Shown in pieces: positions 1,586 through 49,373 of a DNA stretch of 49,373 nucleotides (position 1 is its first letter; the number at the start of each line of letters is the position of its first letter). A model generated the notes under the pieces. The model saw only the letters and a list, made by a program, of their open reading frames with translations. It ran no database searches and was not told the origin of the DNA. This DNA is from Deltaproteobacteria bacterium (GTDB lineage: Bacteria; Desulfobacterota_D; UBA1144; Nemesobacterales; Nemesobacteraceae), in contig JAJCZR010000009.1 of the NCBI GenBank assembly GCA_029262295.1, forward strand, positions 1 to 49,373, written 5' to 3'. Position numbers and translations under genes: made by a program.

Positions 1586-2050
1586 ATGAAAGATAGAATC
1601 TATTACCTGCTGCCAGTTTTCTTTCTTTTAATACTTAACATTTCATGTGAATCAGATTCTCAGGCACAAGAGTTTCCTGAATGTTTTAGCGGCACATATT
1701 TAAATATTGAGGGAAGCGACACTCAAAGTCTTTTTACATTTACAGCTGATGGAAATTTAATTGGTGTAAGTTCGGCAGAGAAAATACTTAATTTTAGCAC
1801 TGAGCTTGGCTCTTGGGTTGCAACAAGTAGTGACACAGCCAAAGCAGTTTTTTTAGACTTTTCATTTGGTAATGCTGGGGAATTAGTAAATATAGCAAGA
1901 GTTGATCTTGATATAACTTTTATCGGGGATAACTGTGAAGAGACTGAAGGGAATTTTGAAATAAGGTTTTTTGAAGATAATGAAGATCCATTAGACATTT
2001 CCGCTGACACAGGCGAGGCAATTTCTGATACTTTTACGGGAAGAAAATAG
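1586..2050 (+). CDS. Lipoprotein of unknown function
   Basis: 154 residues with a type II signal peptide: positively charged start, hydrophobic core LLPVFFLLIL, lipobox NISC with Cys at residue 21. The mature protein is rich in Thr, Asp, Glu and Phe and looks like a small beta-sandwich (CFSGTYLNIEG, LFTFTADGNL, ELGSWVATSSD), a pattern common in Gram-negative lipoproteins that measure or bind surface ligands. I do not recognise the family. An AGGAG sits seven bases before the ATG. The gene is divergent from the lipoprotein at 1009-1506 and converges with the lipocalin gene downstream. Confidence 0.7.
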   Translation: MKDRIYYLLPVFFLLILNISCESDSQAQEFPECFSGTYLNIEGSDTQSLFTFTADGNLIGVSSAEKILNFSTELGSWVATSSDTAKAVFLDFSFGNAGELVNIARVDLDITFIGDNCEETEGNFEIRFFEDNEDPLDISADTGEAISDTFTGRK

Positions 2051-2063
2051 TGGTGGAATAATT

Positions 2064-2603
2064 TTAATTTTGCTTTGTAAACTGAAACTTGTCAGTGTTA
2101 TAGCCATTTTGTTTGAGTTTCAAAAAAGCCTCTTGTAGCATGTCTTCGGTAAGGTTTTTCTCACGGGCTAGGATCCAGCCATATTTACGTTCTGAGTGAC
2201 CAATTACTGCATATTCATAATTATCTCCAATACCAATTATCCAGTAATCTCCCCAAAATAAATACCAGCCAAATATATTAAAAAAGCTTACTTTTAATTT
2301 AGCGTTTGAATCGCTATCAACTACTTTTGCTATACCTTTCGCTTTGACTATGTTGCCTTTATTGTCCAGGCATCTGTTTATAACATTTATTCTTCCATCT
2401 TGTCTTAACTCATAATTTGCTGTGGTATTGCTATCGTATTTTTTCTGGAAACTGTTTGGTATTTTGGCAATTTCATACCAAGTTCCAACATACTTTGATA
2501 GGTCAATTTTGGTTACTGTTTTAACCTCATCTGTATTCTGAGCCATTGAAAAAGATCCAAAAAACAACATTAATAAAACTAATTTTATAATTTTAATGTT
2601 CAT
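2064..2603 (-). CDS. blc: Bacterial lipocalin (Blc family)
   Basis: 179 residues with a Sec signal peptide (MNIKIIKLVLLMLFFGSFSMA) that lacks a lipobox Cys, unlike E. coli Blc, which is a lipoprotein. The first lipocalin motif is clear: YVGTWYEIAKIPNSFQKKY at about residues 39-57, with the invariant GTW. Later strands include NYELRQDGRINVINRC, SFFNIFGWYLFWGDYWII and YGWILAREKNL, matching the Blc/ApoD group. Such proteins bind lipids or lysophospholipids at the cell envelope, which is knowledge of the family. The start overlaps the end of the small membrane protein gene upstream by 11 bases, suggesting translational coupling. Confidence 0.88.
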   Translation of the reverse strand: MNIKIIKLVLLMLFFGSFSMAQNTDEVKTVTKIDLSKYVGTWYEIAKIPNSFQKKYDSNTTANYELRQDGRINVINRCLDNKGNIVKAKGIAKVVDSDSNAKLKVSFFNIFGWYLFWGDYWIIGIGDNYEYAVIGHSERKYGWILAREKNLTEDMLQEAFLKLKQNGYNTDKFQFTKQN

Positions 2604-2877
2604 TCCTTTTACCGTTAAATGAGTTTACTGACTTTACTTTAAATCCAAAAAATAAAATTAGAATTGTTAAGATTAAAAAAAAGATACTAACCGGAAGCCA
2701 GAAGATTGAATCTGCATCAAGCATGTGCGGCATCTCGGGATTAAAACATTTGCCTTCGCTTGAGAACTCTGTCGGACAGCTCGCATATAATGTTTGATAA
2801 AAGATAAAATTAATTATTGATAATGAAGATGTTGTAAAAATTAATATCCAGAACGAAATTTTTTTCCAAGTCTTCAT
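2593..2877 (-). CDS. Small two-helix membrane protein
   Basis: 94 residues with two predicted membrane helices (about residues 7-29 and 59-80) joined by a loop carrying two Cys (ASCPTEF and GKCFNPEM) that could form an extracytoplasmic disulfide. The C-terminal tail is basic and probably cytoplasmic. I recognise no family. It lies eight bases downstream of the ABC-F gene and overlaps the lipocalin gene, so it is probably in one transcript with both. Confidence 0.6.
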   Translation of the reverse strand: MKTWKKISFWILIFTTSSLSIINFIFYQTLYASCPTEFSSEGKCFNPEMPHMLDADSIFWLPVSIFFLILTILILFFGFKVKSVNSFNGKRNEH

Positions 2878-2885
2878 ATTAAATA

Positions 2886-4769
2886 TTAAGAACTCATATA
2901 CTCTGTTACTTCATCCCACCTTTTATACATTACTTTTAGTTTCAAGTTTAACTCATTGAAATCATTGTTTTTTTGTGTCGCATATTCTTCATCATCATAG
3001 AACCCGGGTTCTTCAAATAGATTAACAAGCTCTTCTTTTTCTTTTTCAAAATTAAAGATCTTTTCTTCTAGTTCTTTCAGTGCTTTTCCAAGCTGGTTTT
3101 CAGTAAGGTCTTTCCAGTTACCCATATTTTCAAGCCCTTTTTCTTTTAACTCTCGGTATAGCTTATTTCTTTCTTCAGCGCTTATTTTCTTTTCAGAAAC
3201 ACGGTTTTTATCCTCATTCTCATCACTTTCTGAGCTAAGTTCTTGAGCTCTATCCTCACCTTTATACTTCTTAATAAATTCAGAATAGTTACCCAAATGA
3301 GTTTTTACATCTTTGCTTTCAACATACCAAACCTTGTTAACAAGCTGATCAATGAAGTATCTATCGTGGCTTATGACAATAAAGCTCCCACTAAAATTTC
3401 TGAGTGCATTTAAAAGAACTTCTTTCGACTGAATATCTAGATGGTTAGTAGGCTCATCGAGAATGAGAAAATTTGAAGGTGAAACAAGCATCTTGGATAA
3501 AGCAACCCTGCTCTTTTCGCCCCCGGAAAGTACTTTAACTTTCTTTTCTAAGTCCTCTGAATTAAACAAAAAAGAACCGAGAATGCCCCTTATTTCAGTT
3601 TCTGTCATATCAGGGGCAACATCTGAAAATTCTTCATAAACATTGTTGTCTAGATTAAGTGTATCACTCTGGTTTTGGGCATAATAAGAAAGTTCCACAT
3701 TGTGCCCAAGTTTATGCTCTCCTTCGAACTGCTCAAACTCATTAATTATTTTAGCAAGGGTAGTTTTTCCTTCACCATTTTTTCCGGCGAGTGCAATTTT
3801 ATCCCCTCTTTCAATTTTTAGCGGGCCTGCATTATTAAAAACTGTATTAACACCCATTTCAGTGTTGTACTGTTTTGCAAACTTTGAGATCTCATAAACA
3901 ATCTTCCCGGATCTCCCAGCCTCCGGGAATTTAAGGTTTATAGACTTCCTCATAGTCTCTGGTTCCTCAATCGTATCCATTTTCTCAAGCATTTTTATCC
4001 TGCTTTGCACCTGGGTGGCCTTTGTGTTTTTATAGCGAAAACGCTCAATAAACCTTTCTATTTGCTCTATTTTTTTTTGTTGGTTCTTATAAGTAGAAAG
4101 TTGAATTTCTTTTATATTTTCTTTTTCAAGAAGATATTTTGAATAGTTACCAGTAAACTCCGTGATCTTGCCATTATGAAGTTCTGCAACCGTGTTCACC
4201 ATCCTGTCGAGCAAATACTTATCATGTGAAACAATCACAACTGTGCCACTAAAATTATTCAGATAATCTTCAAGCCATTCAATACTTTCAATATCAAGGT
4301 GGTTTGTAGGTTCATCCAAAAGTAGCAGGCCCGGCTCCATAAGAAGAATCTTTGCAAGTTCAATCCTCATTTTCCAGCCACCCGAAAGATTTACAGCTTT
4401 TTCATTCATCATTTGAATTGAAAAGCCAAGTCCCATCAATATCTTTTCTGCTTTATATTTATAACTTTCAATTACTTCACCTGGGCCAAGATTGTGCTTT
4501 AGTGCTTTAACAGTTTCATCAACTGCTGTTTTTTCTTGTAGATCATAGCTTAGTTCCTGAGGCAGGTATCCAACTATAAGATTTTTTGGAACATTTACTT
4601 TTCCTTTCTCTGGATTTAGTGTTCCGTTTACAACTTCGAGAAGAGTTGTTTTCCCTGTGCCATTAGGCCCTACAAGCCCATACTTTTTATTTTTTTTGAT
4701 AGCCCAATTGAGATCATCGAAGATTTTTTTGCCTTTGAACGACTGTGAAATATTCGTAAGATTTATCAT
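2886..4769 (-). CDS. ABC-F family ATPase (Uup/YheS-like)
   Basis: 627 residues, two ABC cassettes and no membrane segments: a soluble ribosome-associated ABC-F protein. Cassette 1 has Walker A GPNGTGKTT (34-42), signature LSGGWKMRIELA and Walker B LLLLDEPTNHLD. The linker that contacts the tRNA in ABC-F proteins is the Arg/Lys-rich stretch around IERFIERFRYKNTKATQVQSR. Cassette 2 has Walker A GKNGEGKTT, signature LSGGEKSRVALSK and Walker B FLILDEPTNHLD. A charged C-terminal extension with coiled-coil character (about residues 530-627) fits Uup or YheS more than EttA. ABC-F proteins resolve stalled ribosomes or confer ribosome-protection resistance; which applies here cannot be read from the sequence. 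Confidence 0.9.
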   Translation of the reverse strand: MINLTNISQSFKGKKIFDDLNWAIKKNKKYGLVGPNGTGKTTLLEVVNGTLNPEKGKVNVPKNLIVGYLPQELSYDLQEKTAVDETVKALKHNLGPGEVIESYKYKAEKILMGLGFSIQMMNEKAVNLSGGWKMRIELAKILLMEPGLLLLDEPTNHLDIESIEWLEDYLNNFSGTVVIVSHDKYLLDRMVNTVAELHNGKITEFTGNYSKYLLEKENIKEIQLSTYKNQQKKIEQIERFIERFRYKNTKATQVQSRIKMLEKMDTIEEPETMRKSINLKFPEAGRSGKIVYEISKFAKQYNTEMGVNTVFNNAGPLKIERGDKIALAGKNGEGKTTLAKIINEFEQFEGEHKLGHNVELSYYAQNQSDTLNLDNNVYEEFSDVAPDMTETEIRGILGSFLFNSEDLEKKVKVLSGGEKSRVALSKMLVSPSNFLILDEPTNHLDIQSKEVLLNALRNFSGSFIVISHDRYFIDQLVNKVWYVESKDVKTHLGNYSEFIKKYKGEDRAQELSSESDENEDKNRVSEKKISAEERNKLYRELKEKGLENMGNWKDLTENQLGKALKELEEKIFNFEKEKEELVNLFEEPGFYDDEEYATQKNNDFNELNLKLKVMYKRWDEVTEYMSS

Positions 4770-44993: not shown

Positions 44994-47834
44994 CTATTTT
45001 CCAACTACTAATCTTCTTCTGAAAAACATTGCTGCAAACCCAACAATGGCTGGAATAAGCATTACAAAAAAGTTGCTTAGTGCATTTGTCTTACTTGTAT
45101 TAGTAGGAGCTATTGAGCACCCTCCACCATCTCCATCACATTCATCAAGTTCATTTAGCAATATATCTATGAACTCTGAAAACTCTTCATTTGAGTTATC
45201 CGATCTTACTTCTATCTCTGCAACCGCAATTCCTTGTGCATCTTCATCATCAAGACATAGTCCTAAATCAAGATCTAGTTCTGATGGAAACTCATCTACA
45301 ACACAAATTATATCAGCGTCGTCCAAAGACACATTTGCCGTTTCACTTTCGTCAACAAACACGCAGTCACCCACATTAGGAATTAAGTTTGCAAAAAGTA
45401 ATTTTACTTCAGGTGGAATATTAACAAGTATTTGTCCACCACCTGAAATTCCACTTCCTATTCTTATCTCCACTCTTGTTCCATCACCATCTGTTCCTTC
45501 ATTAATAATTTCTATTATATTGTTGTCATCATTCTCTTCATCACACTCACCAGGCTCTCCACTTCCTTCAAAACCATCGTCACAGGCGCAGGTCCTGCCG
45601 GATTCGTCATCAGGTCCGTCTATAATATCTGTGCAAATTGCGTTATCATCACATGGATTGTTTTCGCATGCATCTATTTCTTCATCTGGAATTGGATCAC
45701 ATGTAACTCCATCTGAATTAAGAGCAAATCCTTCATTACATCCGCAAGTTCTTCCATCTTCAACATCTAAGGCAGGAGCAGGTAAATCTGTGCATGTTCC
45801 GTTTACTGAGTCACACGGATTATTAACACAAGCATCTATATCCATGTCACAAGTGTCACCTTCTAATCCAGTTCCTGAGCAATCACAGGTAAATGCATTG
45901 GCTCCATCATCAGTACAAGTTCCACCATTACATGGGTTTGGTGAACAATCATCCAAGTCATTAAATGTAGCCGTGCACGTATCAGTGCAGCTATCTGGAG
46001 TGTCATCATCACTCAGGTCGCCCACTGGATTGATTACTCCGCTTGAATCACAATCACCACTAAAACCGGCAAATTCAGAACCTGGATCCTCGGCTGCATC
46101 AAAATCTACATCGCCTCCAAACTCCTCCTGGATAGTGCATGTTGGCCCATTTGTTTCATCGCAATTAATTCCATTTCCTGTGACTGTGCCCTGACCATCA
46201 CCTTCAACATTTACATTCACATCACATTGAAGAGTGTTTGTGAATACACAATCCAGAAATTCATCAGTTGAAACAATAGTCGCATCAACTGTGCCTGCCA
46301 TATTATCTATTAGCGGGGCGGAACCAATTGTTGAAGCACCACAATCTATATCAAGTGCAAAATTGCCCGGAATATCTTCAGTAATTCTTATATCACCTGT
46401 TGGGATAATAGTGGTATCCATATCCGTATCATCCAGAGTAAATTCATTAAGCAGCAAATCGGAATCTGTAATTATTGATACATCAAAATCAAAACCCATA
46501 CCTCCGGTAGGTTCAGTAAGCTTAGTGACCTTGGCTGTTGTAGTTGGTTGATCCTCATATGATCCTATATCACATATAACAGCAATCCTGGGAAAAGATC
46601 TTTGATCTAAATTATTTACTGGATCAGCCTCACAGGTTGTAGAATCTCCATTATTTATTGCTGGACTTCCTGATAACAGAGCATGAGTTTCGGTAGGGCC
46701 ACCATTATTTTGAAGCGGGCCCAGGTTAGGATCAGATCCAACAATATTATTATTATCACCATTTGCTAAACCGCAGGAAGTATCATCACCTTCGCTGTCT
46801 TCAATAAGATTATTTCCGCCATCGTTAACAGTTCCACCACTACTAGCAATTGATCCACTACCGGTATTATCACAATCACCGCCACTTACTCCGTTTGTTG
46901 TGCTATTTGCCACTATAGTATTGGTAATATTTAAAGTGCCACTAAAAACAAGAATTCCTCCACCATTTGTAGATTCATTATCTGTTATGGTTGAATTTGT
47001 AACAGTTACGGTTGAACCACTTATTGAAAATCCTCCACCGCCATCAACAGAAGTATTGCCTGAAATCGTACTGTTTGTAATTGTAATCACTGCACCCGAT
47101 GCGTTTGCTATTGCACCGCCATTATCATTTCCGCCTCCGTCAATAGTTGTATTTCCAGAAAGAGTGCTACTATCTATTGTTACTGTCCCACCAAAACTGA
47201 AAATTGCTCCTCCATCACCGGCTGCAGTATTATTAGAAATAGTGCTGTTGTTAATAACCAGAATTGGATCAGGGTCACCAAGTCCCAAATTGTCAATTGC
47301 TCCTGAATCACCTGCTGATTGATTATCTGTTATGACACTATCGTTAATTGTCAAAGAACCTTCATTTAAAAAAGCGCCTCCTCGTCCAGAAGAGCTGCCG
47401 CCTGTAACGGTTGTGTTGTTGATAGTCAGAATTCCTATATCTTCAATTTCAAAAATTCTAAAAAGATCCGAACTATCTCTTTCTATTGTGCTTCCATTCC
47501 CATTAATAGTGATATTTGTAGTTATTAAAGGAAGACCATTATTACCATTGTCTACAGCAGTAAGGGTTTGAGTACTGCTTGCTGGAAGATTTATTACATC
47601 ATCGCCGTTACCATCATCACAGCCATTGCCCATTGAAATATCATCATTTGCAGAGTTAATTGCTTCAATTAGTGTGCAGTCAACACCATCTACATCAATA
47701 CTGGCAGCGAAAGATGAGTTAACTGAGAAAAAAAAGGAGAGAATTAATACAGCAAGTAGATACTTACAACTTGCCCAAATTATATTTTTTTTATTAAAAT
47801 TATCCGGTGTGAACTTTTTTGTTTCAACTAGCAT
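44994..47834 (-). CDS. Secreted surface protein: beta-helix, EGF-like repeats, C-terminal Cys sorting tail
   Basis: 946 residues from ATG 47834, which has GAGGGG before it; a TTG four codons upstream lies inside that site. Long signal peptide (cleavage near residue 43, SFA-AS). Residues about 45-425 form a right-handed parallel beta-helix of short N-T-I/V repeats (INNSTISNNTA, ITNSTISGN), the polymorphic outer-membrane-like pattern ending RSFPRIAVICDIGSYE. A beta-rich domain follows (PTGGMGFDFDV), then a Cys-rich stretch with three EGF-like modules (about 635-755), a domain shared with the next gene (about 780-900), and GGGCSIA (45109-45129), a hydrophobic helix and an RRR tail. The tail is the tripartite layout of MYXO-CTERM-like sorting signals: Gly-Cys motif, one helix, basic end. 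Confidence 0.85.
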   Translation of the reverse strand: MLVETKKFTPDNFNKKNIIWASCKYLLAVLILSFFFSVNSSFAASIDVDGVDCTLIEAINSANDDISMGNGCDDGNGDDVINLPASSTQTLTAVDNGNNGLPLITTNITINGNGSTIERDSSDLFRIFEIEDIGILTINNTTVTGGSSSGRGGAFLNEGSLTINDSVITDNQSAGDSGAIDNLGLGDPDPILVINNSTISNNTAAGDGGAIFSFGGTVTIDSSTLSGNTTIDGGGNDNGGAIANASGAVITITNSTISGNTSVDGGGGFSISGSTVTVTNSTITDNESTNGGGILVFSGTLNITNTIVANSTTNGVSGGDCDNTGSGSIASSGGTVNDGGNNLIEDSEGDDTSCGLANGDNNNIVGSDPNLGPLQNNGGPTETHALLSGSPAINNGDSTTCEADPVNNLDQRSFPRIAVICDIGSYEDQPTTTAKVTKLTEPTGGMGFDFDVSIITDSDLLLNEFTLDDTDMDTTIIPTGDIRITEDIPGNFALDIDCGASTIGSAPLIDNMAGTVDATIVSTDEFLDCVFTNTLQCDVNVNVEGDGQGTVTGNGINCDETNGPTCTIQEEFGGDVDFDAAEDPGSEFAGFSGDCDSSGVINPVGDLSDDDTPDSCTDTCTATFNDLDDCSPNPCNGGTCTDDGANAFTCDCSGTGLEGDTCDMDIDACVNNPCDSVNGTCTDLPAPALDVEDGRTCGCNEGFALNSDGVTCDPIPDEEIDACENNPCDDNAICTDIIDGPDDESGRTCACDDGFEGSGEPGECDEENDDNNIIEIINEGTDGDGTRVEIRIGSGISGGGQILVNIPPEVKLLFANLIPNVGDCVFVDESETANVSLDDADIICVVDEFPSELDLDLGLCLDDEDAQGIAVAEIEVRSDNSNEEFSEFIDILLNELDECDGDGGGCSIAPTNTSKTNALSNFFVMLIPAIVGFAAMFFRRRLVVGK
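45130..45490 (-). other. Shared C-terminal domain preceding the sorting tail, copy 1
   Basis: About 115 residues. Features in common with copy 2 at 48110-48440: GGGQILVNIPPEVKLLF, a Gly-Asp-Cys turn, a central Cys, FPSELDLDLGLC, GIAVAEIEV, EEFSEFIDILLNELDEC. Five Cys occur in matching places. No family known to me. Confidence 0.65.
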
Positions 47835-47907
47835 ACAACCCCTCAAAAAAATGTACTACGAATTAAAGGTTAATATTATCATAAAACCGCTTATCAGTCA
47901 GCTAAAT

Positions 47908-49373
47908 TCATTTTATCGTTTGCAACTTAAAAAAACTTTGGACTCTATGAATTCTTCTTATAAGCAAATAAGAAATACTAAACATTAGAGGAACAAGCAT
48001 TATCAAAAAGTTGCTTAGCGCACTTGTTCTATTTGTATCCCCCCCAGAAGCTATTGAACATCCTCCACCATCTCCATCATCACTATCAGAATCAGTATTG
48101 TCATCAGAATCTGGCTCGCACTCTTCCAAAGCATTTAGGACAATTTGAATAATATTATCAAATTCTTCCCCGGGCATGTTATCAAGGGCAACTTCCACTT
48201 CTGCATTTGCAATGCCAGAAAAGTTATCCTGCCTGCAAAGTCCGATTAATAAATCCAAGTCTTCCGGAAATTGATTTATTTCACAGGAAACATCAATATC
48301 AACAAGATTTGTATTCTGAGCCGGCTCAAATATCTCACAACTTCCTATATCCGGACTTAACTCAGTAAAAAGCGGTAATACTTCTTCCGGAAGGTCAACA
48401 AGTATCTCCCCGCCTCCACCAACATATTGATTAATACCAATCGGAACGATTACTCCTTCATCATCACTTTGCCCGTCACCAATTACAACATCATCTGAAT
48501 CACTGTCGTCATCATCGTCGTCGTCACCTTCCATATCGTCATCATCATCGCCAGGCGGACCATCATCATTATTATCCACCGGATCACATGCATCACCAAT
48601 ACCGTCCATATCACTATCCTGCTGACCGGAATTGGAGTTTGTCGGACAGTTGTCACACACATCCCCTAACCCATCACCATCAGCATCACTCTGCGCAGGA
48701 TTAGTAATTGTTGGACAATTATCCCCATTATCACAAATTCCATCATTATCAGCGTCAGGACCATCATTAGATGGGTCTGCAGAACCACCGGATGGGGCAT
48801 TTGCACAATCAAAACAAGAATCTGCATCGCCATCAAACATCGAGCACTGAATATCATCACAATCTACAAAAGCATTGCCATCATCACTCACACCATTAGT
48901 GCAATCTTCGGGACAGGAAAGGCTTCCCGCGCAATCACCGTCATTGCAGTCAATAGTGCCGTCGCCATCATTATCGCCTAAATCACTGCAATCATTTTCA
49001 GGCATTTCACATGTTATTCCGCCCGGGCCTTCTTCACCTTCACATTGAGGGTCGGCACAATCAAAATCACCATCCACATCATTATCTTCTCCATCATTGC
49101 AAATAGTTTCTCCACCCGGTTCACATACTTCTCCATTTGGCCCAGTCTCACCCGCGCAATCAGAATCTTCACAATCCGTATCACCATCAGTGTCATTATC
49201 CACATCGTCATTACATACTTCACCTGCTGCAGATGCAGGCACAACTGCCAAGGCTACAGGATCAACACCTGTTTCCCCTTCACCGGAATCATTAAAATCA
49301 CTTACTACACTTCTGTTGCTACCATCAATACTAAATAAAGCTCCATTCTTATTAGTTCCGGAATCCTGATCAA
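47908..49373 (-). CDS. Secreted surface protein with Ca-binding repeats and C-terminal Cys sorting tail, 5' end outside the window
   Basis: The frame is open to the right edge, so 487 C-terminal residues are seen. It begins in a beta-propeller-like tile (GTNKNGALFSIDGSNRSVV, then GVDPVALAVVP). Next come four repeats of the type CNDDVDNDTDGDTDCEDSDC, then thrombospondin type-3 repeats (DNDGICDNGDNCP, DADGDGLGDVCDNCP, DSDMDGIGDACDP) that should bind Ca2+, an Asp run, a domain shared with the upstream-read paralogue (from GGGGEILVDLPEEVLPLF to ALEECEPD), and a GGGCSIASGG motif, one helix and RRIHR. The first visible internal TTG is not the true start. Confidence 0.8.
   Translation of the reverse strand, partial: DQDSGTNKNGALFSIDGSNRSVVSDFNDSGEGETGVDPVALAVVPASAAGEVCNDDVDNDTDGDTDCEDSDCAGETGPNGEVCEPGGETICNDGEDNDVDGDFDCADPQCEGEEGPGGITCEMPENDCSDLGDNDGDGTIDCNDGDCAGSLSCPEDCTNGVSDDGNAFVDCDDIQCSMFDGDADSCFDCANAPSGGSADPSNDGPDADNDGICDNGDNCPTITNPAQSDADGDGLGDVCDNCPTNSNSGQQDSDMDGIGDACDPVDNNDDGPPGDDDDDMEGDDDDDDDSDSDDVVIGDGQSDDEGVIVPIGINQYVGGGGEILVDLPEEVLPLFTELSPDIGSCEIFEPAQNTNLVDIDVSCEINQFPEDLDLLIGLCRQDNFSGIANAEVEVALDNMPGEEFDNIIQIVLNALEECEPDSDDNTDSDSDDGDGGGCSIASGGDTNRTSALSNFLIMLVPLMFSISYLLIRRIHRVQSFFKLQTIK
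48110..48440 (-). other. Shared C-terminal domain preceding the sorting tail, copy 2
   Basis: Aligns with copy 1 throughout: GGGEILVDLPEEVLPLF, DIGSC, FPEDLDLLIGLC, GIANAEVEV, EEFDNIIQIVLNALEEC. Gly, Pro, Leu and Cys positions agree; the linker before GGGCSIA is Asp/Ser-rich in this copy. Confidence 0.65.

Follow-up and report, generated by a model that had tools for sequence, protein, structure and literature searches.

A probable Cys-type C-terminal sorting tail in Candidatus Dadabacteria, its Nitrospirota counterpart and a candidate myxosortase-like CPBP protease

Exported proteins with unrelated cargo in Candidatus Dadabacteria end in a common tripartite tail composed of the motif GGGC[SA][IV][AG], a transmembrane helix and an Arg-rich end. 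This tail and a Nitrospirota counterpart are probably Cys-type C-terminal sorting signals processed by a myxosortase-like protease of the CPBP family. The tail was recognized at the end of two neighboring genes, P0001 and P0002, and the window, a stretch of 49,373 nucleotides, is contig C9 of a 2.2-Mb Candidatus Dadabacteria genome in 83 contigs (the host genome).

Anatomy of the Two Neighboring Genes

The features of the two genes, all on the minus strand, are as follows.

44994..47846, minus strand: ORF of P0001, a surface protein of 950 amino acids, likely ATG at 47834
47700-47834, minus strand: signal peptide of P0001, judged by eye
45138..45494, minus strand: four-Cys domain of P0001, from alignments
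44997..45137, minus strand: sorting tail of P0001 (DGDGGGCSIA, helix, basic end)
45108-45128, minus strand: GGGCSIA of P0001
45021-45083, minus strand: hydrophobic transmembrane helix of P0001
44997-45020, minus strand: basic end of P0001, RRRLVVGK
47908..49371, minus strand: ORF of P0002, at least 487 amino acids, 5' end truncated at the contig edge
48118..48468, minus strand: four-Cys domain of P0002, from alignments
48070..48117, minus strand: acidic linker of P0002, between domain and tail
47911..48069, minus strand: sorting tail of P0002 (GGGCSIA, helix, basic end)
48049-48069, minus strand: GGGCSIA of P0002
47959-48021, minus strand: hydrophobic transmembrane helix of P0002
47911-47958, minus strand: basic end of P0002

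Read from the N to the C terminus, P0001 is composed of a beta-helix-like region, a choice-of-anchor Q region (NF041518, 72 bits), EGF repeats (PF00008), the four-Cys domain and the sorting tail, and P0002 of acidic double-disulfide repeats (NF033662, 54 bits), thrombospondin-type-3-like repeats, the four-Cys domain and the sorting tail. A first-pass annotation of this DNA had described unrelated N-terminal parts joined to a common C-terminal order, and both observations hold, with a domain of ~118 residues, a linker, GGGCSIA, a helix and a basic end in each gene and 46% identity over the common C-terminal part (domain and tail). The acidic linker reported for both genes is long in P0002 and is merely DGD in P0001. 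The DNA of the tails is alike as had been noted, the stretch AAAAAGTTGCTTAG occurring exactly twice, at 45067 and 48005, where no occurrence is expected.

Tail-bearing Genes of the Host Genome

A profile built from both copies has 18 matches in the host genome, 16 of them beyond P0001 and P0002 (best 4e-62), which places the likeness of the pair far above chance and rules out the possibility that the profile finds only these two proteins. The genome carries 17 tail genes, of which ten also encode the domain and seven do not. The tail-alone proteins are mutually unrelated and include choice-of-anchor I, DUF4331 and DUF11 with a lactonase-type propeller, among others, and the carriers with an intact 5' end have an apparent Sec signal peptide at the start (by eye). 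The first-pass proposal of a dedicated C-terminal sorting tail is strengthened by this spread over 17 genes with unrelated cargo and by the co-occurrence of the tail with a candidate CPBP-type protease described below.

A count of eleven domain genes was rejected in favor of ten because the copies on contigs C6 and C26 share an exact 109-base overlap and belong to a single gene that the assembly has divided. The two halves lie at G000:C6:1 and G000:C26:1, contig C35 also begins within a domain gene, and the repeated module therefore seems to break the assembly.

The Four-Cys Domain Is Not Required for the Tail

Alignments of the copies show four invariant Cys residues in the shared domain, which probably form two disulfides. 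The domain has no match in Pfam, NCBIfam or the PDB sequences, and an AF2 model of domain plus tail from a two-row alignment is poor (pLDDT 48.6) with hints of strands and a C-terminal helix. A relationship to DUF11 was considered and rejected, as the hhalign score of 16.1 was equalled or exceeded by several of 60 column-shuffled controls and Pfam gave no match. A first contig scan using the two-row alignment as the query found nothing, and a search of 396 genomes from the phylum of a Nitrospirota species, a set without a positive control, found no domain.

The first-pass annotation suggested that the domain contributes to the signal for export or anchoring, and a related reading is that domain and tail are one export module with the four-Cys domain as a type II secretion passport. 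The precedent is VesB of Vibrio cholerae, in which an Ig fold together with GlyGly-CTERM sends beta-lactamase to full secretion (PMC13393428), and in all ten complete host domain genes and the one in genome G020 the domain is placed directly upstream of the tail. However, seven of the 17 host tail proteins and nearly all those in relatives are without the domain, which has no confident fold and occurs in merely 2 of 58 Dadabacteria genomes, the host and G020 (one copy). A second G020 match (E = 0.004) proved spurious, lying in a small YlxP-like gene that adjoins infB.

The tails have also been exchanged. The C33 domain is 78-85% identical to the C35 and C26 domains and the C33 tail is 80-82% identical to the tails of P0001 (C9a) and C69, whereas the domains of P0001 and C69 are just 41% identical to that of C33. 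At the DNA level the C33 tail region is 81% identical to C69 over 179 bp. Judged from these identities, the tails recombine as units and have been swapped between domain subfamilies. The distribution of the domain and the exchange of the tails rule it out as an obligate sorting signal, and the domain is therefore not taken as part of the signal. A single export module is thus an unlikely account. The shared domain is more likely a cargo-side module that has multiplied in the host genome through paralogy and recombination and on which sorting does not depend, and it may serve in adhesion or as a stalk; by analogy with the VesB Ig fold it could be an export domain beside the tail, which is less likely.

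Distribution of the Tail and of a Candidate CPBP Protease in Dadabacteria

The phylum was sampled with 58 Dadabacteria genomes, including 14 reduced genomes of ~1 Mb from one family, and the tail was found in 38. It has the features of Cys-type tripartite signals, with a Cys motif at the C terminus, a single hydrophobic helix and, after it, a basic cluster. Among 28 tail loci picked by the profile the Cys is present in all 28, and in 27 the match ends no more than 10 residues from the stop codon.

Tail genes are clustered in some of these genomes. In G015 (C73:14916-27781) five lie within ~13 kb on one strand, forming an array of putative surface proteins, and in locus L199 (G040) two convergent neighbors, 214-1641 on the plus strand and 1709-3118 on the minus strand, each end in a tail.

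The host genome has two CPBP proteins, one of 202 amino acids at C78:3002-3610 and one on C65. The C78 protein scores 73.7 bits against CPBP PF02517 (cut-off 22.4, E = 2e-20) and 68 bits against the myxosortase core (Mrt core, cut-off 100), a model that the C65 protein fails to match. Orthologues of the C78 protease are present as a single copy per genome in 33 of the 58 genomes, the G042 copy being a fragment at a contig edge, and the catalytic motifs EExxFR, FxxxH and FHxxxN are invariant. The AF2 model of the C78 protease has a pLDDT of 94.1; Foldseek of this model against the PDB returned nothing below E = 0.001 and the PDB sequences gave no match, so that the CPBP membership rests on sequence. 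Contig C78 of the host also carries a tail gene, 2.8 kb upstream of the protease gene.

The first-pass annotation had expected a cognate processing enzyme elsewhere in the genome, for which the C78 protease is a CPBP-type candidate. Tail and protease occur together in 30 of the 58 genomes, the tail only in 8, the protease only in 3 and neither in 17 (Fisher p = 4e-6 with genomes treated as independent despite kinship). Thus the protease is present in 30 of the 38 tail genomes and absent from 17 of the 20 tail-less genomes. Much of the association comes from one lineage because all 14 reduced genomes are without both. The type II secretin GspD follows a related division, with matches in 43 of the 44 genomes outside the reduced family, the weaker of which may be other secretins, and in 0 of the 14 inside. 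The tail-only genomes are mostly fragmented bins, but G033 (280 contigs) is 96% complete and has ten tails and no detected protease. The protease is likewise missing from the bins G037, G038 and G041.

Three further observations concern the protease loci. In the order members G016, G018, G025, G027, G034, G036 and G039 the contig with the protease gene also holds a tail gene at a distance of ~15-18 kb, in what looks like conserved synteny. The Dadabacteria proteases have a conserved Cys (residue 149 in L021 3002-3610, G000:C78) in the loop after FxxxH, which is absent from the Nitrospirota relatives read. The gene at L021 1455-2972 (G000:C78), which precedes the protease gene by 29 bp, encodes an FG-GAP-type exported protein with a lipobox-like N terminus, LFTVLSC.

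The Nitrospirota Counterpart

The next-closest proteases are from Nitrospirota and form their own group in the tree (support 93/96), separate from the Dadabacteria group (93/93). At 20 of 30 Nitrospirota loci (19 by profile and L146 by eye) the protease gene is directly adjoined by a gene with a GGGGGCS[IV]G tail. Myxococcota loci fetched with the same query had no match to this tail profile. In three Nitrospirota loci, L139 5731-10469, L143 5598-10152 and L153 5004-10270, tail genes flank the protease gene on both sides in a three-gene cassette. The gene adjacency in Nitrospirota provides independent support, at the level of gene order, for the pairing of tail and protease.

These observations bear on a rival explanation in which the tail is a plain membrane anchor, its helix is left uncut and the common C termini stem from gene duplication. 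A hydrophobic helix followed by Arg could alone anchor a protein, and the paralogy and DNA similarity are clear. A plain anchor would not be expected, however, to keep the Cys in every tail found by the profile, to adjoin an Mrt-like protease gene in another phylum or to co-occur with that protease, and we regard this explanation as improbable.

Comparison with Known Sorting Systems

Neither the tails nor the tested proteases reach the cut-off of any NCBIfam model (June 2026); the 2024 survey by Haft (J Bacteriol 206:e00173-23) may mention the lineages. Among the nearest known systems is MYXO-CTERM of Myxococcota with MrtX, MrtC and MrtP. In M. xanthus the CPBP protease MrtX cleaves MYXO-CTERM in a manner dependent on the motif's Cys residues and is needed for surface location, and lipidation has been proposed (PMC11980579). 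The tails share with MYXO-CTERM an invariant-Cys motif, one helix and an Arg-rich end, and the systems share many unrelated exported carriers per genome, a CPBP-family protease and type II secretion in the genome (PMC11980579). The differences are the phyla, the motif, which is of the GCGC type in MYXO-CTERM and GGGC[SA][IV][AG] here, and the protease, which here has ~200 amino acids, forms its own lineage and scores 47-74 bits against Mrt_core (NF040914, cut-off 100). All proteases fall under the cut-offs of the MrtS, MrtP, MrtC, MrtJ and MrtX models, and the best tail score against MYXO-CTERM (TIGR03901) is 13.3 bits with a cut-off of 20.

The nearest scoring model for the tails is JDVT-CTERM (NF033191, cut-off 27 bits), which also has a glycine-rich Cys motif, with at most 14.6 bits for Dadabacteria tails and 19.3 bits for one Nitrospirota tail within an overall range of 7-19. 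An enzyme-plus-target gene arrangement is reported for MrtJ and JDVT-CTERM (PMC11980579), and the Nitrospirota loci resemble it as two-gene pairs. The proteases reach 32-47 of the 75 bits required by MrtJ (NF033192), however, and the Dadabacteria protease, unlike MrtJ, would serve many scattered targets. The best-scoring model for the Nitrospirota proteases is MrtS of the Synerg-CTERM system (NF040589) at 65-70 bits, but this is under the cut-off of 130 and the tails have no match to Synerg-CTERM. GlyGly-CTERM has in common a glycine-rich tripartite C-terminal tail, surface proteins and type II secretion, and in VesB an Ig fold beside the tail acts as an export signal (PMC13393428), whereas the GlyGly-CTERM enzyme is a serine rhomboid, no rhombosortase is present here and the motif here contains an invariant Cys. 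The comparison supports tail and protease as a variant, not yet named, of Cys-type C-terminal sorting systems already described.

Cleavage of the tail by another membrane protease of the host, either the sole rhomboid (C62) or the other CPBP protein, on C65, is very improbable: although both are encoded in the genome and GlpG cuts a GlyGly-CTERM protein in the absence of rhombosortase (PMC13393428), the rhomboid scores 23.1 bits against rhombosortase TIGR03902 (cut-off 84) and is not a rhombosortase, the C65 protein fails the Mrt core model and no exosortase was found in the host genome.

Proposed Mechanism and Implications

The anatomy of the tail and the class of the enzyme match MYXO-CTERM/MrtX, and the following steps are modelled on that system because of this match. 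For a Cys-type signal processed by the myxosortase-like CPBP protease, we infer by analogy that the tailed precursor would be exported by Sec, its tail helix would hold it in the inner membrane, the invariant Cys would probably be lipidated, the helix would be cut off by the single-copy protease (C78:3002-3610 in the host) and the product would be transferred by type II secretion, leaving the proteins anchored on the cell surface.

If this reading is true, it would supply two phyla, Nitrospirota and the uncultured Candidatus Dadabacteria, with a Cys-type sorting signal and a matching enzyme, and it would explain by what means as many as 17 large exported proteins per genome may get to the cell surface. 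The compact enzyme-plus-target pairs of Nitrospirota would offer a small system for cleavage tests and for finding the enzyme presumed to attach a lipid to the Cys in every such system.
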